DNA from: a virus | IMG/VR virus record: IMGVR_UViG_3300025889_000593 | Span: 1 to 31,041 of that record | Length of the DNA stretch: 31,041 nucleotides | Reading direction: 5' to 3' (one strand) | Shown: positions 2,474 through 31,041 of the stretch, in pieces | How the letters are laid out: the number at the start of each line of letters is the position of its first letter | Numbering within the stretch: position 1 is the stretch's first letter | Notes under the pieces: generated by a model | What the model saw: only the letters and a program-made list of their open reading frames with translations | What the model was told of the DNA's origin: nothing | Database searches by the model: none | Translations under genes and position numbers: made by a program

Positions 2474-4885
2474 ATGCAAATTTACACTAACAACAATAGC
2501 TCTTTTCCAAGTCAGGTGGTACCTGATGCAGAGAAAGCTACTTTAGAATATGGTTTAGCTGTCGGTAGAGCTATTGAAGGAGAATGGTTTAGGAATTATA
2601 GAAGTGCATATAATACTCCGGGTTACGCTGTGAATTTCAATCAATACCATAACTTAAGATTATATGCTAGAGGTGAACAACCTGTTCAAAAATACAAAGA
2701 TGAATTAGCTATAAATGGAGATTTATCTTATTTAAATCTAGATTGGAAACCTGTTCCTGTTATATCTAAATTTGTTGATATTGTTGTTAATGGAATATCA
2801 CAAAGAAATTTTGAAATAAATGCTTTTGCTCAAGACCCAGTTTGTTCAAGGTCAAGAACCGAATATGCTACAGCTTTGTTAACAGATATTAATGCTAAGA
2901 AATTTTTACAAACAGCACAGCAAACACTAGGTATAAACGCTTTTAATTCTCCAAATCCTGAAACTGCTCCACAAGACGAACAAGAACTAGAGATACATCT
3001 TCAGATGGATTTTAAACAAAGTGTTGAAGTAGCGGAAGAAGAAGTTATAAACCAAGTTTTAGATAAAAATAAATACGATCTAACTAGAAGAAGGTTTAAT
3101 TATGATTTAACAGTTTTAGGTATTGGTGCTGTAAAAACAAATTGGAACAAAGCAGAGGGTATAACTGTAGACTACGTAGATCCAGCTTGCTTAGTTTATT
3201 CTTATACTGAAGATCCTAATTTTGAAGATATATATTACGCTGGAGAAGTCAAGTCTGTAGCTTTAGCAGATTTAAAAACGCAGTTTCCTGATCTCACAGA
3301 CGAAGAAATGGAAACTATACAACAATATCCAGGAAACGCAGAGTATTTAAGAAACTGGAGCGGTAGATCAGATGATTTAACTGTGCAAGTTCTTTATTTT
3401 GAATATAAAACATATAGCGACCAAGTCTTTAAAATAAAAAAGAATTCTTTCGGATTAGAAAAAGCATTAGAAAAACCTGATTTTTTCAATCCACCTGAAA
3501 GTGATAACTTTGAAAGAGTGTCTAGAACTATTGAAACTTTATATAGTGGAGCTAAAATACTAGGTCACCCTATGATGATGAGCTGGGGTTTATCAGAACA
3601 CATGACTAGACCCACCGCTGACACTGTTAAAGTAAAAATGAATTATAATATATGCGCCCCTAGAATGTATAAAGGGCGTATAGAATCTTTAGTTTCTCGT
3701 ATAACAGGTTTTGCTGATATGATACAACTAACTCATTTAAAAATTCAGCAAGTACTAGCTAGAGTAGTTCCAGATGGTGTATACTTAGACATGGATGGTT
3801 TAGCTGAAGTAGATTTAGGAAACGGAACTAATTACAATCCTGCTGAAGCATTAAACATGTATTTTCAAACTGGTAGTGTAGTAGGTAGATCTTTAACTCA
3901 AGACGGCGATGTTAATAGAGGTAAAATACCAGTGCAAGAATTACAGACTGGTTCAGGCGGTGGTAAAATACAATCTTTAATACAGACTTATCAATACTAT
4001 TTGCAAATGATAAGAGACGTAACCGGTTTAAATGAAGCTAGGGATGGAAGTACTCCAGACAAAAACTCTTTAGTTGGTTTACAAAAAATGGCAGCAGCTA
4101 ATTCAAATACAGCTACAAGACATATATTACAAGCAAGTATGTACCTTACCCTTAGAACATGTGAGAATATATCTCTTAGGGTAGCTGATTCATTAGCTTT
4201 TCCTTTTACTAAACAAGCTTTAAGAAATAGTATATCAGCTTTTAATGTTGGAACTTTAGATGAGTTAACGAAAATAAATATACATGATTTTGGTATATTT
4301 TTACAGCTAGAACCAGACGACGAGGAAAAAGCTAAACTAGAAGAGAATATACAAGTAGCATTAAAATCTGGACAGATATATTTAGAAGACGCTATAGACA
4401 TACGTGAAGTTAGAAACATTCAATTAGCTAATCAGTTTTTAAAATATAGAAGAAAGAAGAAACAAGAAGCTGATCAAAAAGCTCAACAAGCTAATATTCA
4501 AGCTCAAGCTCAAGCAAATGCAGAAACAGCTGAAAAAGCTGCTTTAGCTGAAGTTCAGAAACAGCAAGCATTAGCTCAAACTCAACTTCAAATTGAACAA
4601 GGCAAGTCACAGTTTGAAATAAAAAGAATGCAAACTGAACTGCAAATGAAAAAAGAATTAGCAATGCAAAAGTTTGAGTTTGATATGAAACTAGCTCAAG
4701 TAGATGTACAAAAAGAACAAGCTAGAGAGCAAAGTATTGAAGATAGAAAAGATAAAAGAACTAAGATACAAGCTACTCAACAAAGCAAGATGATAGACCA
4801 AAGACAAAATGATTTATTACCTACAGATTTTGAATCTGACCAAAACAGTGGAGAAGTTGATTTAAACAATTTACAAATCACCTAA
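2474..4885 (+). CDS. Portal protein
   Basis: This 803-residue protein probably forms the dodecameric ring at the capsid vertex, through which terminase packages DNA and to which the tail attaches. It sits directly after terL. Its long body includes a conserved-looking central segment with the phrase LLTDINAKKF and a later helical region. From about residue 655 there is a long K/Q/A/E-rich tail predicted to be coiled coil, with AQAQAQ runs and many glutamines. Such a tail is typical of the roughly 800-residue portals of crAss-like and related marine podoviruses, and would form the helical barrel or crown inside the capsid. The identification rests on position, size and general resemblance. No catalytic motif is expected. 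The start ATG follows ATAT with no ribosome-binding sequence. Confidence 0.82.
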   Translation: MQIYTNNNSSFPSQVVPDAEKATLEYGLAVGRAIEGEWFRNYRSAYNTPGYAVNFNQYHNLRLYARGEQPVQKYKDELAINGDLSYLNLDWKPVPVISKFVDIVVNGISQRNFEINAFAQDPVCSRSRTEYATALLTDINAKKFLQTAQQTLGINAFNSPNPETAPQDEQELEIHLQMDFKQSVEVAEEEVINQVLDKNKYDLTRRRFNYDLTVLGIGAVKTNWNKAEGITVDYVDPACLVYSYTEDPNFEDIYYAGEVKSVALADLKTQFPDLTDEEMETIQQYPGNAEYLRNWSGRSDDLTVQVLYFEYKTYSDQVFKIKKNSFGLEKALEKPDFFNPPESDNFERVSRTIETLYSGAKILGHPMMMSWGLSEHMTRPTADTVKVKMNYNICAPRMYKGRIESLVSRITGFADMIQLTHLKIQQVLARVVPDGVYLDMDGLAEVDLGNGTNYNPAEALNMYFQTGSVVGRSLTQDGDVNRGKIPVQELQTGSGGGKIQSLIQTYQYYLQMIRDVTGLNEARDGSTPDKNSLVGLQKMAAANSNTATRHILQASMYLTLRTCENISLRVADSLAFPFTKQALRNSISAFNVGTLDELTKINIHDFGIFLQLEPDDEEKAKLEENIQVALKSGQIYLEDAIDIREVRNIQLANQFLKYRRKKKQEADQKAQQANIQAQAQANAETAEKAALAEVQKQQALAQTQLQIEQGKSQFEIKRMQTELQMKKELAMQKFEFDMKLAQVDVQKEQAREQSIEDRKDKRTKIQATQQSKMIDQRQNDLLPTDFESDQNSGEVDLNNLQIT

Positions 4886-19780: not shown

Positions 19781-22700
19781 ATGGAAGAAATATACTTGAT
19801 CGACGGTATAGAAAACACTTTAGCTGAAATGCAAGCAGCAGCAGCAGCTTCTCGAATGGAACTTACTGATTATATAGCCGCTACTGGTGCTGTTAAAAAG
19901 CAAGCAGAAGAAGAAGTGGAAAAGCAAGAAGCTACAGCGGTGGATGCTGCGGAAGTTGTAGCGGAAGATGTAGCAGTAGAAGAGAGTACGGATTTAGAGT
20001 CGGTAGATACTTCATTGGATTCTCCATATCTTAGTGCCGGAAATGTAGGTAAATTTTTAGGTTATAGAAATTCATTCAATCCAACCAGTTCTTTAGAAGA
20101 GTTAGCACAATCAAGCATTGAGCAAGAAGAGGAAGAAGATTTTATTTTAAACCCTGATTTAGATTATCAAACAGGTAAAGATGAATATGGTAGAGAACGT
20201 GATGGATCTATAGAAGATGCATTAGACGATGCTAATCCTGGAAGCTATGGTGTTACAGGACAAGATGTTGTAGATAATTACGTTCGTAATCAAAAAACAA
20301 TTCAAAAGGATAGAGAAAGAATAGAACAAGAAGCTAAAGATTTAGAGAAAAGAAGAAATAAGCTTGAGTTAGCAGAAAAATATGCTGGATTTCCAACTCA
20401 TAGAGAATTTTGGACGAACAATGAAAAGCAACAAAGAAACGAGGATGAAAGAATAGCCTATGAAAAAGCTTATGAAGAAAATCAATTAGAACTTGAAGCT
20501 TTAGTTGATGAAGAGTCTAGATTTTATAGGTATAAAAGTAAAGAAGCTTATAATGAGGAAATAGCTGCAAATCCTTTATTAAATTCTAAGTTAACAGTAG
20601 ACGAACAAGTTGCAGCATACCAAAATGATTTAAATGCTGTTAGAGATTTAAACACTACTGATGAGGAAAAAGCAAGATTAATGCTTCAGCTACCGGTTCC
20701 TAGGTTAGTAAACATAAAATATGATTCTAAAAGTCAAACAACTAATGTTATTCCTAAACCAGAAATAGTTAATAAAGTTCAATCTAAACTTGGTACTATA
20801 ACTAATACAGATAATGAAAAAACTATACAAGTAAAAGTAGACAAAGCTGTTAAAGAGTTAATGAACGAAAATCCTATTGTAACATTGACTAGAAAAACTA
20901 TTGCTGCTAAATATGAAAAAAGAATTGCTGTTGAACAAAAAAGATTAGAAGATTTACCTATTACAAACGAAGAAAGAACAAAACTTCAAGCTGAGTTTAA
21001 TAGCAAAATGAATACTGAATATGCTAAGGAAATAAACTCTAATCAAAACATTAATGATTTTTTTGAAGACTATACTTTAATAGCCAGCGATGCTGCCGCT
21101 AAAAATAATAAGGAATGGAAAAGAGCCAATAATGTAATACTAGCTGGTGTTGATTTTGCAAGATACAAAACAAGTGGTGTTCCAATAGTGGCTGGTGCTG
21201 TAGATTTTGGAACAAGTATAATTGAGGGAGTATACAAAGCTTTAGGAATTAATGCTCCTATTACTGCTAATCAAATAACTATATCAAGTAGTCAGTTAGG
21301 TGCAGAGAGAACAGCTGGTGAAATAGCTATGGCTTCAAGACTTAATCCTAAAGACATTCTTAATGTTAAAGTAAGTGGTTTTTATGGTGAAGAAGTTATT
21401 GGTGATATTAAAAGTGTAGATACTCCTAATGGACCAAAAGGTTTTGATGTTTTAGACGAAAGAGGTAAATCAAGAAATACTGCTGATTACAGAGGAAAGA
21501 CTAAAAAAATGACTGTAGCTGAGTATTTAAAATATAAAGAAAGCCAAGCTGCGGGATATAAAAAAGATATAATAACTGATATAGAAGATATAGAAGGTTA
21601 TGATAAATATGCTGAAATATTTCAACAAGTAGACTGGGATGAAGGTATAACTTTTGCAAATGCTGGTATGGCGGTAGGAGAAACCCTTCCACAGATGGGT
21701 GTTACTATGGCTGGTGCTGTAACTGGAAATCCTGTGCTAGTTGCTCTTGGAACCGCAACTATGTTTGCTCAAGAATATGGTTCGATGTATTACGATACTT
21801 TGCTAACTGGTTTGAGAGAAGATTTAGACAGAGAACCTACTACTGAAGAAATATACCAAGCGTTAGAAGAAGGTAAATATGCAGATCAATCTGAAGCTGC
21901 TGCTTTTGCAGCAATTAGTACTTCTTTAGAGCAAGCTGGTAACTTAATAGGTGTTAGTAAAGCTTTTAAAGCTTTAGGTGTAACAGAGAAAACAGGTTTA
22001 AAATCTTTATTCAGAGGTGAAATAAAAGGTTTTTTAAAGAATACTGGTAAAACAGCTTTAGTAGCTGGAGAATCTGGTTTTGTTGAAGGATTAACAGAAG
22101 GCATGCAGCAAGGTGTTTCACAGTTAGGTACTGGTTATCAATTAAAAGGTTTACCAGGCTTGTTTGATTATGGAAACTTTGATGAAATAGTTGAAGCAAG
22201 TAAAAGTGGTGCTGTTGTAGGTGTTATTATACCTAGCGCAAGAGCTTTTAGAAGACAAACTAAAGTGGAAACTAGAGCAGCTTTAACTAAAGTAGCAGTT
22301 GGGTTAGATATTAGTGGTTTAGGAGAAAATTTAAAGAAAGCAGATAAAGCTTTTAATAATGCGATTGAAGGCGTTGATCAAAAAGTAAAAGACAATGAAA
22401 TAACAGAAGAACAAGGTCGTGAAGAAAAAGAAGCAATATCAGATGTAAGAAACTCTACATTAAAAATGCCTAAAGAGTTTTATAGTTTTAATGAATCACA
22501 GCGTTCTTCTTATTTAGATGCAATGATTAGAAAGCAAGAACTTGTTAGAAAAATCAAAAACCTTGATGATAGTTTTACTGAAAAAGATAATGCAGAACTA
22601 GATCAAGTAAATGAATATTTAAGAGGTTTAATTCAACGTCAAACTGGTACTGAAACTAAATCATATGAAGTTTCTGACGCTATAAAGCCCACAGAAATAG

Positions 22701-25700
22701 TTGAAGAAGGATCTAAAGAAGATCTAGAAGGTAAAATAGCTGCTACTGATCTAGAGTTATCAGCTATGGAGCAAGTTGAAAAAATGCGTAAAGGAGAAGG
22801 AGCTGTTGCAAAAATAGCCTCGGAAGTGGGTGATACTGAATTTAAAGCTGATGAGTCTATAGGAGAGGGAGCAGCTATGGAGGTATTTGATACAACTGAA
22901 GAGTTAGAAAGTAATTACACGACTTACGCTGAAAACCAAAAAGCTAAAGTACAAAAACAAATTGATGCTATTAAAGATCCTAATTCTAAAGAAGGTAAAG
23001 CTAAAGTACAGGAATTGCAAGATCAAATATCTCAAATAGATCAACAAGTAAGTGATATAAAACGTTCTGACGCTTTTATTTTACCTAATGGACAAATAGT
23101 AATAAATAAAGAAGTTGCCGCTAGAAAAGGTGCTATTTCGGCTGCTTCACACGAGTTGCTTCACAAAATTTTAAAATCAGAATTTAGCGATAAAACTAGA
23201 GCTGTAGAATTAGCAGATCAATTTAAAAAGACTTTAAGTAGTAAAGAGTTAAGAATAGTTCAAAGAAGAATAGACAATAATTATAGATACCAAAGGGATG
23301 AGAACGGTAATATATTGTTTGATGAGTATGGAGCTATAGAAAACGACTATAAAGACTATGCTGAAGAGTACTTAACATCGTTCTCTGATGCTATAGCTAA
23401 AAAAGAAATTAAATGGTCTGACAACCTAGGCGCGAGACTATGGGAGATGAAAGAATTTTTGCTTAGCGGTTTTAGAAAAAAAGGATACACTGATATAAAA
23501 TTTCAAAACGGAAGAGATGTTTATAATTTTATAAAAGATTATCAAAAAAATATTAAGAAAGACAGAATATCTAAAAGAGCTAGATTAATGGCTGATGCAG
23601 GCAAAGGACTTGTTGCTGATACAAAGACTTCTAAGACTGATAAACCCACAGCACTGCAAGCTATTAATCAACTTGTTCCACAAGACATCAAAACTAAGGC
23701 AGATTACGATGCTTTTGTTAGTGATCGTAGAAAATTTCCAGCTTTGTTTAATGCTACATTCGACAGTCAAGAAGCACAAGCTTTTGGCATGAATATTGAC
23801 CAAGATGGTGTGATAAGCAACTACGTTAAAAGTAGATCTACAGGTGATGAGTATCCTGGCGCTATACAATCAGTTAGAGATAGGTTAACTAATTTTGATC
23901 CAACTGCTAAAAGAGCTGATGGTTCGACGGTAGGTATAGAAGGTTTTGGTGAATTTATATTTGCTAATACTAACTTTGGAAAAATGGACTCTAAAAAGAA
24001 ATTAGCAAAAGCTAGTGAAAAAAGAAAGTCTGAAACTGGTTTAACTGATAAAGAAGGTAAACCTTTGAATATAGCAGCTGATGATACTCCTACAACAAGA
24101 GTTGAAAGTAAAAAAGATAAAGTAACTCCAAGATCTAAAATTAAAAAAGCAGTTCCTGAATTAATAACTCAACAAGTTGAAGAAGATATAGAAGTTGCTG
24201 CGTTAGAAATATTAGAAGGTGTAAGACCAGATCCTAATTCTAAAGAGTATAGACCTTTTATTACACAAGTTCTTGAAGCTAAGCTTACTCCAAAGATGAA
24301 AAAAGCTTTTGGTACAGCTAAAGGGTATGAGTTTCTAATCAAGAAGCTAGCTCCTAAAATGAAAGAGCTTTTACCTGTTCAATACTTTGTTAAGTTAGAA
24401 TCACAAGTTAAACCTGAAGATAGAGTTTTCACTAACCCACCTGTAGACTTAGGTACAAATGCTGAAATTGATGCAGCTATGGATAAAGGAACAGTATATG
24501 TAGAGAACAATGCTCAAGGTGTTAATTCTTACACATTTAAAGATTTTAACAATCAAGATCTTATAGATTTTATACTAGCTCCACCGGTTAGCCCAACGAC
24601 TGGTAAGAAAAGTGGATTAAGAGGTACTAGAAAAACATCAACTGCTGCATCTACTGCTATAGAAGTAGGTAGAGATATGGTAGTATCTTTAGCTGAAGGA
24701 AGAGTTTCACCTGCTGAAAGAGCTTTACTAGCTAAAAAACTACAAAGAGATCCAAGAATTAAGTTTAGTAATACTGCTCAAAAAGAAGAATATAAAAGTC
24801 ATATTAAGAAATTTGCAGATAATTTAGTAGATCAAAATTTAGGTTATAATAAAAAAGCTATTGAAAGAGCATTATATAAGACCTATATAAATGAAAACAC
24901 TAGTGATGTATGGGGTAAAACTTTAGAAGATAAAGAAAGAAGTTTATCAGAGTTAGCTAGAGATCTAGTCAATCCTATTAAAAAACTTACTAAACCCAAG
25001 GGTAAAACATCTTTAAAAACATTAAAAGCTTTCCCAGACATAGGAGAATTTACTGTAGAAGAATTAACACAAAAAGAATTAGCCACAAACTTAATTAAAG
25101 CTTTAGACTTAGATATAAAAAACTTTGGAATTGCATTTGAAGATCCAGCAAATGTAACATTTCAAAGACAACTAGAAGCTGATTATATAAATAGCTTAGT
25201 TGAAAGTAAAGGTAAAGAGGAAGCAGTGAGAATAGCTCTTACTATACTTAAAGGTCATAATGCAACTGCTTCTAAAATAGGAGCTAGTAACTTAGGTGTT
25301 TTAGAACCAGGAGGGCAACGATACCAAGTTTTTGAAGGTATGGAGGATTATGTAAACTCTGTTATTAATACAATACCTAAAGTTAGAGTTAAGACAGGTA
25401 AAACTAAAGATGGAAAAACAACTATAGAGTCTATAACTATAGATGGCAAACCTATTGATAAATACCCAAGTAGACAAGCTCAAAAGTCTAAGAGTAAAAA
25501 ACATTTTCAAGAAACTTTTGAAAAGAGAAAAGAAGAATCTGATGAAGTTTGGGAACTTTTATTAGATTATATTGATTTCATGAAAGCAAACGGAAATAAC
25601 TTGAGTTTTGGAATGACTATGATGTCATTAAAAAGTAGTATGGATAGCATGCTTAAAGCTGCTGCTTTAGCTAAATACTATTATGTAGGGCCCAATATGA

Positions 25701-28700
25701 AAGCTAGTGAACTTAGATATGAACACATGATACCTACGGAATATGTAGCTTTAAAACTAACTCAACATTTTTTAGGTAAAAAAATAGATTTAAAAGCTTT
25801 AAAAGATAGATACAATGTAGCTGTTATTCCTAAAATAATGGATGATAATATTAACGTTCAACTTCAAGCCGTGATGCCATCGTACTGGAACGAAACTATG
25901 TCAGAAACTGAGCGCTACTTTAGCGAGCTTACGTTAGGTTATCCTAATATGTACGCTTTAGAAGTTATTGGTGGTGAAAATAAAGGAGATATAATAGGTG
26001 AAGATTTTTTAAAGCTAAATGATGCTAAATTAAAAGCTAAAGTAAAAGTTAATATACCAATAATTGACGATGCTAAAGTAATGAATACTAAAAATTCATA
26101 CAGCATGTCATCAGAAGATGTTCTTAATAAAGCTGCTAGTTTAGATGAAGCTTTACGTAATGCTCGTAATCCTAATGCTCCAGTTAAAAAGATTAGAGTA
26201 TTTGACTTTGATGACACATTGGCTAGAACTAAAAGCAACGTACTATATACAATGCCTGACGGTACTAAAGGTAAATTAACCGCTGAAGAGTTTGCTAAAA
26301 AAGGAGATGCTATGTTAGCTGAAGGAGCTGTATGGGATTTTTCAGAGTTTAACAAAGTAATGGATGGTAAAAAAGGTCCATTATTTGAAGTAGCTAAGAA
26401 AATACAAGATACTAGAGGAACAGAAGATTTGTTTGTACTAACAGCTCGTGCTCAAGAAGCTTCACCAGCTATTAAAGAATTTTTAGATGCTATTGGTTTA
26501 AATATACCACTTAAGAATATATCTGGCTTAGGTGATAGCTCTCCATTTGCTAAATCAAACTGGATAGTTGATAAAGCAGCAGAAGGTTACAATGACTTTT
26601 ATTTTGCTGATGATGCAACACAGAATGTTAAAGCAGTAAGAGATGCATTAGAAGTATTAGATGTTAAATCTAAAACTCAACAAGCTAAGATTAAGTTTAG
26701 TATGTCAATGAGCGAAGAGTTTAACGTTATAATAGAACAGTCTAAAGGAATAGATAGGTTTAAAGTATATTCAGACGTTAAAGCTCAGTTGATTGGAGCT
26801 AGAAAAGGTAAGTTTAAGTTTTTTATACCACCATCAGCTGAAGATTTTCAAGGTTTATTATACGCTACATTAGGTAAGGGTAAACAAGGTATGGAACAAA
26901 TGAAGTTCTACGACAAAGCTTTATTAAAACCTTATTCTCAAGCTATGGAAAACTTGTCTACTGATAGAGTTAATTTAATGGCTGATTTCAAAGCTCTTAA
27001 AAAAGAATTAGATGTTCCTAAAGACTTACGTAAAACTACTGAATCAGGATTTACTAACGAACAAGCAGTAAGAGTTTATTTATGGGCTAAGACTGGTCAA
27101 GAAATACCTGGTTTATCTAAAAAAGATTTTAAAGAACTAAATGACTTAATAGAAAACGATCCTAAGCTTAAGACGTTTGCTGAGCAAATACTATCTATAA
27201 CTAAAGGAGATGGTTATTCCACACCTAAAGCTGATTGGGCTGTAGGAACTGTTACAACTGATTTAATAGAAGTTTTAAATACTACTAAGCGTGGTAAATA
27301 TTTAGAAACATGGCAAGCTAATGTAGAAGCTATATTTTCTAAAGAAAACATGAATAAATTAGAAGCTGCTTTAGGAACTAAATATGTAGATGCTTTACGT
27401 AATAGTTTAGCTAGAATGAAGTCTGGTAGAAACAGGATTGAAGGGGGTAACAAACTAAGTAATCAAGTATTAAATTATATTAATCAATCCACTGGTGTTA
27501 CAATGTTTTTTAATACTAGATCAGCATTGCTACAAACTATATCTGCTGCTAACTTTGTTAACTGGAGTTTTAATAATCCATATCGTGCTGGTAAAGCTTT
27601 TGCTAATCAACCTCAATATTGGAAAGATTTTACTATGTTAATGAACTCTGACTATCTTATGGATAGACGTAATGGTTTAAAGTTAAATATATCTGAGTCT
27701 GAAATTGCAGATGCAGCTAAAACTTCTAAGAATAAAGCTAAGTCGGTTTTAAATTACATATTAGAAAAAGGTTATTTACCAACTAAGTATGCTGATAGTT
27801 TTGCTATAGCTTCTGGTGGTGCTATGTTTTATAGGAATAGAATAAACGACTTGATAAAGAATGAAGGTAAATCTATAGAAGAAGCTGAAGCTCAGGCTAT
27901 GGAAGAGTTTAGAACTGTATCAGAAACATCTCAACAGTCTTCTGATCCGAGTAAGATATCACAACAACAATCTGGTGATATGGGTAGAATTATATTACAG
28001 TATGTTAATACTCCTATGCAATACGCTAGGATACAAAAGCGTGATATACAAGATATGATTAATAGAAGACCTATGCCGGGTAAAACTTTAGCAGAAAGTA
28101 ATAGAACTAGATTAGCTAGAATAAGTTATTATGCCTTTGTACAAAACTTAATGTTTAATGCACTTCAACAAGCATTATTTGCTGTAGACTTTGGAGATGA
28201 TGATTTAGATGAAAAGGAGCAAAGAACAATGGTTAATACAGCTAACGGAATGCTAGACTCGTTTCTTAGAGGATTAGGATTTGCTGGAGTCACTGTTCAA
28301 GTACTTAAAAATTTAGGTATAGACATATACGACAGGAGTCAAAAATCAAGACCAGAATATAGTGATGCTTGGATTAAGCTATTAGAATTTTCTCCTGCTA
28401 TTAAAACTAAGCTGTCTAAGCTTAAAGGTGCTGCATACCCATTTGATTCTAAAAAACGAAGACAAGAAGTATTTGATAAAGGTTTTAGCTTGGATAACCC
28501 AGCATATGAGTCTGCTGCTAAAGTTATATCAGCCACTACTAATATACCAATAGATAGACTTTATAATAAGATAAACAATATAAGTGCTGCGTTAGCAGAA
28601 GATACAGAAGCTTGGCAGTCTGTAGCTATGATGTTAGGTTGGCCAGAATGGCAAATAAAACCTCCACCACCTAAAGTTAAACGAAAAGCCAAGGCGAAAT

Positions 28701-28723
28701 CTAAATACAAAAAAGTTATTTAA
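19781..28723 (+). CDS. Giant internal virion protein: metallopeptidase-like site, HAD domain, conserved C-terminal region
   Basis: At 2,980 residues this is the largest gene in the window, and it is probably injected with the DNA. The order is as follows. An N-terminal short domain (YLIDGIENTLAEMQ) is followed by an acidic linker. Charged helices run up to about 450. Hydrophobic stretches at about 453-483 and 629-665 may associate with membranes. A zinc-peptidase signature HELLH lies at 1124-1128, with a possible third ligand at E1195/E1196 (YAEEY). A HAD phosphatase domain spans about 2140-2285: DFDDT with D2142 and D2144, T2221 in LTAR, and D2277-D2278. A conserved region follows (FFIPPSAEDF near 2347, MFFNTRSALLQTI near 2575, and QQSSDPSKISQQQ). 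The tail is proline- and lysine-rich. It resembles polyvalent internal proteins of marine podoviruses. RNA-polymerase motifs were not seen. Confidence 0.75.
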   Translation: MEEIYLIDGIENTLAEMQAAAAASRMELTDYIAATGAVKKQAEEEVEKQEATAVDAAEVVAEDVAVEESTDLESVDTSLDSPYLSAGNVGKFLGYRNSFNPTSSLEELAQSSIEQEEEEDFILNPDLDYQTGKDEYGRERDGSIEDALDDANPGSYGVTGQDVVDNYVRNQKTIQKDRERIEQEAKDLEKRRNKLELAEKYAGFPTHREFWTNNEKQQRNEDERIAYEKAYEENQLELEALVDEESRFYRYKSKEAYNEEIAANPLLNSKLTVDEQVAAYQNDLNAVRDLNTTDEEKARLMLQLPVPRLVNIKYDSKSQTTNVIPKPEIVNKVQSKLGTITNTDNEKTIQVKVDKAVKELMNENPIVTLTRKTIAAKYEKRIAVEQKRLEDLPITNEERTKLQAEFNSKMNTEYAKEINSNQNINDFFEDYTLIASDAAAKNNKEWKRANNVILAGVDFARYKTSGVPIVAGAVDFGTSIIEGVYKALGINAPITANQITISSSQLGAERTAGEIAMASRLNPKDILNVKVSGFYGEEVIGDIKSVDTPNGPKGFDVLDERGKSRNTADYRGKTKKMTVAEYLKYKESQAAGYKKDIITDIEDIEGYDKYAEIFQQVDWDEGITFANAGMAVGETLPQMGVTMAGAVTGNPVLVALGTATMFAQEYGSMYYDTLLTGLREDLDREPTTEEIYQALEEGKYADQSEAAAFAAISTSLEQAGNLIGVSKAFKALGVTEKTGLKSLFRGEIKGFLKNTGKTALVAGESGFVEGLTEGMQQGVSQLGTGYQLKGLPGLFDYGNFDEIVEASKSGAVVGVIIPSARAFRRQTKVETRAALTKVAVGLDISGLGENLKKADKAFNNAIEGVDQKVKDNEITEEQGREEKEAISDVRNSTLKMPKEFYSFNESQRSSYLDAMIRKQELVRKIKNLDDSFTEKDNAELDQVNEYLRGLIQRQTGTETKSYEVSDAIKPTEIVEEGSKEDLEGKIAATDLELSAMEQVEKMRKGEGAVAKIASEVGDTEFKADESIGEGAAMEVFDTTEELESNYTTYAENQKAKVQKQIDAIKDPNSKEGKAKVQELQDQISQIDQQVSDIKRSDAFILPNGQIVINKEVAARKGAISAASHELLHKILKSEFSDKTRAVELADQFKKTLSSKELRIVQRRIDNNYRYQRDENGNILFDEYGAIENDYKDYAEEYLTSFSDAIAKKEIKWSDNLGARLWEMKEFLLSGFRKKGYTDIKFQNGRDVYNFIKDYQKNIKKDRISKRARLMADAGKGLVADTKTSKTDKPTALQAINQLVPQDIKTKADYDAFVSDRRKFPALFNATFDSQEAQAFGMNIDQDGVISNYVKSRSTGDEYPGAIQSVRDRLTNFDPTAKRADGSTVGIEGFGEFIFANTNFGKMDSKKKLAKASEKRKSETGLTDKEGKPLNIAADDTPTTRVESKKDKVTPRSKIKKAVPELITQQVEEDIEVAALEILEGVRPDPNSKEYRPFITQVLEAKLTPKMKKAFGTAKGYEFLIKKLAPKMKELLPVQYFVKLESQVKPEDRVFTNPPVDLGTNAEIDAAMDKGTVYVENNAQGVNSYTFKDFNNQDLIDFILAPPVSPTTGKKSGLRGTRKTSTAASTAIEVGRDMVVSLAEGRVSPAERALLAKKLQRDPRIKFSNTAQKEEYKSHIKKFADNLVDQNLGYNKKAIERALYKTYINENTSDVWGKTLEDKERSLSELARDLVNPIKKLTKPKGKTSLKTLKAFPDIGEFTVEELTQKELATNLIKALDLDIKNFGIAFEDPANVTFQRQLEADYINSLVESKGKEEAVRIALTILKGHNATASKIGASNLGVLEPGGQRYQVFEGMEDYVNSVINTIPKVRVKTGKTKDGKTTIESITIDGKPIDKYPSRQAQKSKSKKHFQETFEKRKEESDEVWELLLDYIDFMKANGNNLSFGMTMMSLKSSMDSMLKAAALAKYYYVGPNMKASELRYEHMIPTEYVALKLTQHFLGKKIDLKALKDRYNVAVIPKIMDDNINVQLQAVMPSYWNETMSETERYFSELTLGYPNMYALEVIGGENKGDIIGEDFLKLNDAKLKAKVKVNIPIIDDAKVMNTKNSYSMSSEDVLNKAASLDEALRNARNPNAPVKKIRVFDFDDTLARTKSNVLYTMPDGTKGKLTAEEFAKKGDAMLAEGAVWDFSEFNKVMDGKKGPLFEVAKKIQDTRGTEDLFVLTARAQEASPAIKEFLDAIGLNIPLKNISGLGDSSPFAKSNWIVDKAAEGYNDFYFADDATQNVKAVRDALEVLDVKSKTQQAKIKFSMSMSEEFNVIIEQSKGIDRFKVYSDVKAQLIGARKGKFKFFIPPSAEDFQGLLYATLGKGKQGMEQMKFYDKALLKPYSQAMENLSTDRVNLMADFKALKKELDVPKDLRKTTESGFTNEQAVRVYLWAKTGQEIPGLSKKDFKELNDLIENDPKLKTFAEQILSITKGDGYSTPKADWAVGTVTTDLIEVLNTTKRGKYLETWQANVEAIFSKENMNKLEAALGTKYVDALRNSLARMKSGRNRIEGGNKLSNQVLNYINQSTGVTMFFNTRSALLQTISAANFVNWSFNNPYRAGKAFANQPQYWKDFTMLMNSDYLMDRRNGLKLNISESEIADAAKTSKNKAKSVLNYILEKGYLPTKYADSFAIASGGAMFYRNRINDLIKNEGKSIEEAEAQAMEEFRTVSETSQQSSDPSKISQQQSGDMGRIILQYVNTPMQYARIQKRDIQDMINRRPMPGKTLAESNRTRLARISYYAFVQNLMFNALQQALFAVDFGDDDLDEKEQRTMVNTANGMLDSFLRGLGFAGVTVQVLKNLGIDIYDRSQKSRPEYSDAWIKLLEFSPAIKTKLSKLKGAAYPFDSKKRRQEVFDKGFSLDNPAYESAAKVISATTNIPIDRLYNKINNISAALAEDTEAWQSVAMMLGWPEWQIKPPPPKVKRKAKAKSKYKKVI

Positions 28724-28878: not shown

Positions 28879-29067
28879 ATGAAAAAATTATTACTTACTA
28901 TTATCGCATTATTTATATTTAACTCTTGCGTAGCTGTTGAACCTTGCTTTTTTAGCGATGATTTTCAATACGCTAATTACCAAAGTTCTATTGATACTAC
29001 ATTTAATTACTTAGAAGATATAGATATTTTAATATCGTGTGGTGCAGGTTCTTGCCCGCCAAAATAA
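28879..29067 (+). CDS. Small lipoprotein
   Basis: The 62-residue product has a lipoprotein signal: MKK, a hydrophobic core (LLLTIIALFIF) and an F-N-S-C site with Cys17 as the likely lipidated residue. The mature 46 residues are acidic and aromatic and end SCGAGSCPPK, which includes a C-x4-C pair that could form a disulfide. The start follows a leader of three AAACT-type units, closely like the leader of the capsid gene, and there is no Shine-Dalgarno sequence. It is the only plus-strand gene beyond the structural module. Its 3' end overlaps the opposing lipoprotein gene by 61 bases. Known phage lipoproteins often alter the host envelope or block superinfection, but no family is recognised here, so any such role is a guess. 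Confidence 0.62.
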   Translation: MKKLLLTIIALFIFNSCVAVEPCFFSDDFQYANYQSSIDTTFNYLEDIDILISCGAGSCPPK

Positions 29068-29585
29068 GGATACAACTGATATCTTCTATATTCTCGTGGA
29101 CAGTTTCTAGGTACATGTACATAAGTTCCGTCTACAGATAATTTATAATCCCAAGTGGATATTGTAAGCTCATAATAATGAGACTCTTCTAAAGTTACTC
29201 TTTTGATTAAATCAAAACTAAACTCTCCTAGCTCATGTTTAAACCAGTGTATTTCTAAACTGTCGTTTAACCATCTCCAGCCAAATCGTATAGAATTATC
29301 CATATGATTACTTCCGCAATCACTCCATCCTATTAATTTATTAATGTCTAATTGATTAAGGCTATCCACAGTTTTGTAGATAGCACTTGAATCAAATTCA
29401 ATGTTCCAACCGAACACTGTGTCTTTACTATAGTTTAAAGCATATGTCGACCTATGTCTTCCTTTCTTTATAGTAAATACTTTTTCTTTACTTGTTATTT
29501 TATTACAGCTAGTTAATTTCACAAGCACCGCCAGCACAAGCAAGCTCACCAGAAAGATCTGTATTGTCTTCAGTTTCTGTAACAT
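29007..29585 (-). CDS. Lipoprotein resembling an uncharacterised Bacteroidota family
   Basis: The 192-residue product has a classic lipoprotein signal: MLQKLK, a hydrophobic core (IFLVSLLVLAVLV) and a lipobox L-T-S-C with Cys27. There is no other ATG before the lipobox, so the start at 29585 is required for export. The mature part is strand-rich with tryptophans. It contains the phrases IRFGWRWLNDSLEIHWF and YPYFGGQEPAPHDI, which I recall from uncharacterised lipoproteins of Bacteroidota genomes, so host origin is plausible. The first 77 bases lie inside the nrdJ 3' end in another frame, which suggests translational coupling. The last 61 bases overlap the opposing small lipoprotein gene. Its function is unknown; envelope modification or superinfection exclusion is possible. 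Confidence 0.8.
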   Translation of the reverse strand: MLQKLKTIQIFLVSLLVLAVLVKLTSCNKITSKEKVFTIKKGRHRSTYALNYSKDTVFGWNIEFDSSAIYKTVDSLNQLDINKLIGWSDCGSNHMDNSIRFGWRWLNDSLEIHWFKHELGEFSFDLIKRVTLEESHYYELTISTWDYKLSVDGTYVHVPRNCPREYRRYQLYPYFGGQEPAPHDIKISISSK

Positions 29586-31041
29586 TAGTTAAATCAATTT
29601 CCGTTAATGACTTCATCATATACTCATATGTAGACTTGCTAATATCCTCGAAAGGAGCTTGAGTATAAGTACCACCATCATATGGTAAAACAGATAAACC
29701 GTTGTAGTGTTCTCTGTTATTCCACATCCATTCGCCAGCAAAGTTCCATTGCTCTGGTTTTAAGCTAACTGTAGCAGATACATTGTGAGTGTTAGATCCT
29801 TTTCTATGACCTGGCTTTACCCACTCTGTAGCAACTTTCTTTATACGTTCAAGTAATTCAAACGGTGATTCATCTCTCATAATAGCACCTTCAGGAGCTT
29901 TTTGCGGTATACTAATTACAGCAGTGTCATGAGGTCTAAAATACTCATCTTCAATAAGCTCAGGATGGTTTGTAGCTAAGTAATTATATATACTTTCGTT
30001 TTTTCCAACCCTGATCCTACGGACATAATAATCGCTGTGCCATGCGTGAATACCAGATGATGTTCCTAATGCCAGAGATGTTGTCCCAGCAGGCTTCACG
30101 GTTGTACATCTGGCTGCAGGATTGATCCCAATAAGCTTTGCAACTCTTGAGTTCTCTCTTTTAACTACATCAGCTGCTTTAGTCATATCATAACCAAGCA
30201 CAACTCCTGATCCTATACCTGTCATTGATACTCCTATCAGTGCATCTTTCTCAGTCGTCTCTCTCCATACATTTCTTAAGTAATGAAAATTAGTATAGCC
30301 AGCTTGTAGTGTACCTATAAATGCAGCAGCTTTTACTCTCTTGTTTAAATCTTCTTGTGATTCAATATCAGAAGCATTTACTTCGCACAAGTTACAGAAC
30401 TGATAAGGTCTTAGTGCTATCTCGCAGCAAGGATTAGTTCCCCAATCTTTATCATTGTTAAAGTAAATACCTGGTTCACCAGCATTACTAAGCTCTACAC
30501 GTTTCCATAAATCCATAAAAAATTCTTTAGTTATCTTATGTCTCATTAAGCATGCTGAGTTATTAGCACGACCTCTTTGTGGATTTGTTTCCCACCAATT
30601 ACCTGACTTACAAGAAATCATTTCATCATCATCAGCAGAGAATAAACTAATCAACGCTGCTCTACGTATACCACCAGCTAAGACTGCATCTGCTACGTGA
30701 CAAACAATATCGTGTACTTCTATAGTGGATAATGTTTCTCCAGACTCTTTGCTATTTAATATACCTGTTATTTTAAGTATGCACTCTTTTAATGGTTGAG
30801 GACCAGGAGCTTTACCTCCTGATGTTACTAACTGTGCTCCCTTAGGTCTTATATCAGAGAAGTCAAAGTCAATTGTTGATTGTCTTTTATCTCCCATATA
30901 AGACTTCATAAGAACTTTTATAGCGTCTGCCCAACCTTCTATGGAGTCTCCAACTAAAAATCTTCTAGTTCTTTTTGCATATGGTTTATTAACTGGTTCT
31001 AAGTTTTGTACGTGATGTTTCTGTACAGAGTAACCTACACC
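29509..31041 (-). CDS. nrdJ: Class II (adenosylcobalamin-dependent) ribonucleotide reductase, 5' end outside window
   Basis: The frame runs from the right edge to TAG at 29509-29511, giving 510 residues and lacking the N-terminus. Without a small subunit, this enzyme reduces ribonucleotides to deoxynucleotides using a radical generated from coenzyme B12. The active-site pattern matches Lactobacillus leichmannii reductase spacing. NPCCEI gives the first active-site cysteine and the glutamate two residues later. The cysteine of QFCNLCEVN is exactly 11 residues after the first, equivalent to C408, E410 and C419. The C-terminal CAGGAC has the C-x4-C spacing of the re-reducing pair C731/C736. The thiyl cysteine (C119 equivalent) lies beyond the edge. 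Extra cysteines beside the active-site residues are notable. Part of the gene (about 30001-30120) is GC-rich. It is first in a minus-strand operon with the lipoprotein gene. Confidence 0.93.
   Translation of the reverse strand, partial: GVGYSVQKHHVQNLEPVNKPYAKRTRRFLVGDSIEGWADAIKVLMKSYMGDKRQSTIDFDFSDIRPKGAQLVTSGGKAPGPQPLKECILKITGILNSKESGETLSTIEVHDIVCHVADAVLAGGIRRAALISLFSADDDEMISCKSGNWWETNPQRGRANNSACLMRHKITKEFFMDLWKRVELSNAGEPGIYFNNDKDWGTNPCCEIALRPYQFCNLCEVNASDIESQEDLNKRVKAAAFIGTLQAGYTNFHYLRNVWRETTEKDALIGVSMTGIGSGVVLGYDMTKAADVVKRENSRVAKLIGINPAARCTTVKPAGTTSLALGTSSGIHAWHSDYYVRRIRVGKNESIYNYLATNHPELIEDEYFRPHDTAVISIPQKAPEGAIMRDESPFELLERIKKVATEWVKPGHRKGSNTHNVSATVSLKPEQWNFAGEWMWNNREHYNGLSVLPYDGGTYTQAPFEDISKSTYEYMMKSLTEIDLTNVTETEDNTDLSGELACAGGACEIN

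Follow-up and report, generated by a model that had tools for sequence, protein, structure and literature searches.

The last 77 bases of nrdJ, a phage gene for a class II ribonucleotide reductase, also encode, in a second reading frame, the predicted signal peptide of a lipoprotein. The gene pair lies on the minus strand of the window, the 31,041-nucleotide stretch of viral DNA analysed here (IMG/VR record IMGVR_UViG_3300025889_000593). The explanation proposed, which the comparisons below make highly probable, is that in the clade of phages represented by the window the lipoprotein family's own signal peptide was replaced by the +1 reading of the nrdJ end. An ATG inside nrdJ would be the start of translation; the hydrophobic core would come from an out-of-frame reading of the enzyme's conserved C-x4-C tail; and part of the lipobox serine that stands ahead of the lipidated cysteine would come from the nrdJ stop codon. 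Export by the Sec route, cleavage by LspA and lipidation would follow.

The 3' part of nrdJ occupies positions 29509 to 31041, its 5' end running off the window. Its translation matches PHROG 367 (E 1.4e-108) and TIGR02505 (RTPR; E 1.1e-66, 225.5 bits, which is below the curated cut-off of 340), and it ends in the C-terminal redox pair C-A-G-G-A-C (C-x4-C; codons at 29521 to 29538), both cysteines of which are kept in 70/70 of the other nrdJ tails tabulated. From the family match and the motif, as read in this 3' part, the product is classified as a B12-dependent (adenosylcobalamin-dependent) class II enzyme. The lipoprotein gene (192 amino acids, 29007 to 29585) begins at an ATG at 29585 that falls, as originally predicted, on the second base of an nrdJ codon (Asn, AAT, 29586-29584), and the two genes overlap by 77 nt (29509 to 29585), the lipoprotein being in the +1 frame relative to nrdJ. 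Its N-terminus reads MLQKLKTIQIFLVSLLVLAVLVKLTS followed by C27. The first 26 codons (29508 to 29585) form the predicted signal peptide, of which residues 2-24 are helical in the structure model, and the Cys27 codon (29507-29505) starts, as had been said, at the second base after the nrdJ stop (TAG, 29511-29509). The accompanying claim that all 26 residues are read from the last 77 bases of nrdJ was right about the length of the overlap and one base short for the peptide: 78 bases are needed, and the last of them, in codon 26 (29508), lies past the stop. The hydrophobic core SLLVLAVLV (29520 to 29546) is, as noted originally, the other reading of the nrdJ codons for E-L-A-C-A-G-G-A-C, and in the lipobox L-T-S-C (29505 to 29516) the serine at -1 is made from the AG of the nrdJ TAG and the next base. 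The sequence has the charged n-region, hydrophobic core and lipobox ([LVI]-x-[GAS]-C) of a lipoprotein signal, with an unusual Lys at -4, and it is read in another frame of a functional gene that lies upstream. Translation and, as described below, conservation bear out that the redox tail also serves as a predicted lipoprotein signal.

Because the lipoprotein frame begins at the second bases of nrdJ codons, the third positions of nrdJ are the second positions of the signal-peptide codons. A T at the second position of a signal-peptide codon gives a strongly hydrophobic residue, so that T- or C-ended nrdJ codons yield Leu, Val and Ala in the signal peptide. Codons ending in A yield polar residues, or a stop if Leu is written TTA or CTA before GCN, and it is by such A-ended codons that the +1 frame is closed in most other phage nrdJ genes. 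Every overprinted signal peptide has Lys or Arg at -4, which comes from an invariant nrdJ Glu codon; this position is charged in 0/29 of the family members with ordinary signals, and the charge may lower the efficiency with which the overprinted signal is exported. The lipobox residue at -2 is H, P or N in some relatives, which is not typical. In 6/7 of the phages examined there is less structure around the start than across most of nrdJ, which suits independent initiation, and with 77 nt between the start and the nrdJ end ordinary stop-start reinitiation is unlikely.

An open frame with a start and the lipobox Cys is kept in the window and nine relatives. The 77-nt overlap is identical in extent in L001-L004, L006, L007 and L015, and is shorter, with the Met elsewhere, in L005 and L016, in which the usual ATG is lost and another ATG, followed by Lys, lies in frame downstream. 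When synonymous codons were drawn from the usage of the window's own nrdJ clade, the +1 frame of the window was open in 4.9% of draws, and both open and as hydrophobic in 0.01%. The main conservation test covered nine phages, the window among them, whose nrdJ sequence is long enough; the tenth, L016, is cut near its contig end. Across the core of these nine lipoprotein-bearing phages the nrdJ third position is a pyrimidine in 81/81 codons, compared with 45% upstream, and pairwise purine/pyrimidine differences number 0/310 in the core and 25% upstream; other nrdJ genes have no such contrast between core and upstream third positions. A tree-based count, from which loci found only by a tail pattern demanding pyrimidines were excluded, gave 0 purine/pyrimidine changes against 9.2 expected in the lipoprotein-bearing phages (P 1.5e-4), and 3 against 6.6 expected (P 0.11) in relatives without a full-length overlapping lipoprotein. 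Synonymous differences in the overlap are 0.74 of expected in lipoprotein-bearing pairs, a modest effect, and 1.03 of expected in other nrdJ. The nrdJ stop is TAG in 9/9 lipoprotein-bearing phages and in 8/71 other nrdJ, and it is TAA in 4/4 clade members without the lipoprotein.

Judged from these site tests, which are weakened by the small number of phages (nine), by their relatedness and by nrdJ trees that differ in places, suggesting recombination, selection is acting on the second frame and the overlap is not due to chance. Both of the outcomes that the original prediction had looked for in relatives, a retained lipoprotein frame and constrained synonymous choice, were accordingly seen. 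Where clade members lack the lipoprotein, this selection looks relaxed.

These members nevertheless keep an open hydrophobic frame, so openness alone is no proof of use. It is conceivable, if rather unlikely, that the short frame is a functional membrane peptide without any lipoprotein, and that the lipoprotein was joined later to an already selected small gene. Strongly hydrophobic ATG ORFs of 26-31 aa do occur in L051, L101, L075, L047 and others, as found with a biased search pattern, and for the L051 frame P is below 5e-5; but the constraint is not significant in members without the lipoprotein, and in L223 the frame has been lost. Moreover, members without the lipoprotein are mixed among the lipoprotein-bearing ones in the tree, so that recent loss explains their open frame. 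The four clade members that keep such a frame could also mean that it is a by-product of the codon habits of this nrdJ clade, the lipoprotein starting elsewhere or decaying. That reading is very improbable given the codon simulation, the contrast with other nrdJ genes, the use of TAG and the relaxed changes where the lipoprotein is absent, and decay is at odds with a mature protein that is 77-85% identical in the closest relatives and has a high-confidence predicted fold.

The origin of the arrangement was sought in the wider lipoprotein family, which comprises 42 viral loci. Most members have an ordinary short signal peptide and lipobox and adjoin other genes; where the N-terminus of a wider relative is intact, it nearly always has a signal peptide and lipobox of its own away from nrdJ, and the lipobox, including its Cys, is conserved across the family. 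In the tree the overprinted members form one clade. The next branch is L009, which has its own signal (support 95.6/100 for the group including L009), and the overprinted clade and L009 together lie inside a larger group with ordinary signals (support 99.4/100). The original prediction had proposed that the phage might in this way have turned a non-secreted protein into a secreted one. This does not agree with the tree: the overprinted clade is nested among homologs that already have signals, which indicates that export came first and that the signal was replaced rather than created.

Homologs free of any signal do occur in the phages Pan5 (Pseudanabaena) and Lbo-JY46 (Leptolyngbya), and a 636-kb phage has one as its second copy. 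They lend some support to the view that acquiring the nrdJ-derived signal turned a cytosolic protein into a lipoprotein. The Pan5 and Lbo-JY46 proteins have the same domain by tblastn (29-30% identity), lack a signal peptide and lipobox, and are not beside nrdJ in the stretches read. However, these cytosolic forms are distant outgroups, while the clade sits within a large group of ordinary signals and conserved lipoboxes and its nearest outgroup, L009, has a signal, and the view is very improbable. A K...S-x-R...Y-x-Y pattern conserved in the cytosolic homologs may resemble that of PL14 alginate lyases. That the downstream frame is a frameshifted C-terminal extension of NrdJ and not a separate protein, as its +1 overlap and its position directly after the nrdJ stop might suggest, is scarcely credible, since every homolog outside the clade is a gene by itself, in nearly all cases with its own signal, the ATG shifts yet persists, the lipobox is kept and the L008 gene is separate from nrdJ.

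L008 is nested in the overprinted clade and is informative about signal replacement. A relative with the frame broken inside the overlap and the downstream gene intact with another start had been named originally as evidence against the proposal. L008 does have a broken frame and an intact gene with another start, but the break falls just after the overlap, and the intact mature part has a new, independent signal peptide, MQKRNKKLCLIFLIYILISC, ending ISC. L008 therefore supports export.

Two further observations concern the distribution of the family. The 636-kb uncultured phage (L011) contains two copies of the lipoprotein domain (1546-2046 and 3911-4507), one with a signal peptide and one without. 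In the genome collection a single relative was found, on a contig filed under a Prochlorococcus single cell; since a contig of equal length stands in the viral collection as L017, this is probably phage sequence. Among the best matches listed there was no isolated phage that has the overlap.

The position of a second small gene is consistent with insertion of the lipoprotein gene behind nrdJ. A conserved 12-aa Cys-rich ORF, MC[PE][YL]C..[YLF]C..C (CxxCxxxCxxC), follows nrdJ in L130, L133, L136, L140, L143, L144, L149, L156, L157, L159, L168 and L179; it is absent from the window, exists in 13 distinct DNA versions and did not arise in shuffled sequence. It could encode a redox or metal-binding micropeptide working with NrdJ. 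In phages without the lipoprotein it lies 17 nt past nrdJ, and in three phages with the lipoprotein it lies at the lipoprotein stop, which are the positions expected if the lipoprotein had been inserted between nrdJ and the 12-aa ORF. Signal replacement would then have begun with this insertion as its likely origin, the incoming gene being joined at its lipobox to the hydrophobic frame at the nrdJ end, and later selection would have fixed pyrimidines at the nrdJ third positions. In L051, L047, L101 and L223 the site behind nrdJ differs in its contents, with a methyltransferase-like gene, a gene for a secreted protein of 470 aa or simply no lipoprotein.

Other reading frames also appear to use the nrdJ tail, and further users were sought with a pattern of pyrimidine-ended nrdJ tails. 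In one genome, L152, which belongs to a different nrdJ lineage than the window clade, the tail runs on into an unrelated predicted lipoprotein of 88 aa in another lipobox register, the lipobox Cys codon being made up of bases from the final nrdJ codon and the nrdJ stop. A search for a second example of this protein found none. Its mature part has a Kazal-like look, but the comparison with a Kazal inhibitor gave only E 0.22 and Pfam no match. In L133, L158 and L008 the nrdJ tail gives predicted lipopeptides of 43-48 aa; those of L133 and L158 have a common ending, GVCR..LYQS, and past the overlap they differ by five synonymous and five non-synonymous codons. The ConA-fold lipoprotein of the window clade, the 88-aa lipoprotein of L152 and the lipopeptides of L133, L158 and L008 are candidates for separate joinings, each in one or a few genomes. 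It is tentatively suggested from these sequences that the C-terminal redox motif of NrdJ is, through its +1 frame, a recurrent ready-made source of export signals for unrelated downstream frames.

The mature part of the lipoprotein was examined by structure prediction. An AlphaFold2 model of the 192-aa protein (pLDDT 90.5) consists of an N-terminal helix and a beta-sandwich, and the 166-residue mature part is predicted to be a ConA-like jelly roll. Foldseek matched it to ConA-like carbohydrate-active or carbohydrate-binding folds with E about 1e-5 and moderate TM scores of 0.3-0.6; a far closer structural match is the unnamed viral protein H9YSE3 (E 8.7e-14, TM 0.74/0.87). Searches with the lipoprotein family in Pfam, NCBIfam, PHROGs and PADLOC returned nothing usable, and no solved structure matched in sequence. 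The likeness to ConA-like lectin and glucanase proteins (GH16, PL7 alginate lyases, kappa-carrageenase, CBM66, galectins) is accordingly one of predicted fold alone. We infer that the protein would be placed in the envelope and bind or alter glycans there, for example changing or masking the host surface in the course of infection.

The window virus, a marine phage, is placed by the relatives of its portal protein among the podoviruses of Flavobacteriia: nearly all of the portal homologs (n=87) are in phages of Flavobacterium, Cellulophaga, Tenacibaculum and Maribacter. Beyond the lipoprotein gene lies a convergent ORF of 62 codons on the plus strand (28879 to 29067) with a lipoprotein-like N-terminus, MKKLLLTIIALFIFNSC. 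At its 3' end it overlaps the lipoprotein gene in antisense orientation, and it has no part in the overlap mechanism; no full-length homolog was found among the fetched loci. A 2,980-aa ORF (19781-28723, plus strand) adjoins structural genes.

The closest known systems are the embedded and overlapped two-component spanins, such as lambda Rz/Rz1 and the P2 type (PMC6139136), which have made phage lipoproteins with an overlap of this sort familiar. As in the window, the lipoprotein signal of these spanins lies in another frame of the preceding gene, with a start inside it, and such genes are often missed by annotation. In spanins, however, the upstream gene encodes a partner in the same lysis complex, whereas in the window it encodes a metabolic enzyme whose catalytic tail gives the signal; the window protein is also a 166-residue beta-sandwich with homologs whose ordinary signals reveal the swap. 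That the lipoprotein is the outer-membrane component (o-spanin) of such a pair is not supported, as the upstream gene is nrdJ and not one for an inner-membrane i-spanin; no lysis gene was identified beside nrdJ among the neighbours looked at.

The surface lipoprotein export signal (LES) of Bacteroidota is C-X-K-(D/E)2-X after the Cys (PMC5080379). The lipoprotein family resembles LES proteins in that the known hosts of the phage group are Flavobacteriia and that C-x-K begins at the lipidated Cys, many wider members continuing I-D-(D/E). The window protein reads C-N-K-I-T-S-K and differs in having no acidic pair, so surface display by the LES route is not predicted for it.

Overlap of an upstream gene by a phage lipoprotein is known; what is new is that the host of the overlap is an enzyme gene, that its catalytic motif is used and that an exchange of signals is documented. 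A literature search found no report of an nrdJ/lipoprotein overlap in open-access papers. For the annotation of environmental phages the consequence is that gene callers that avoid overlaps can shorten or miss such lipoproteins. Among the relatives are phages with an ordinary signal, with a shared signal and with a signal that has become separate again, and together they provide a direct comparative case of signal replacement. The origin of signal peptides, and the carrying of two functions by one DNA stretch, are usually discussed in the abstract; here they are testable.
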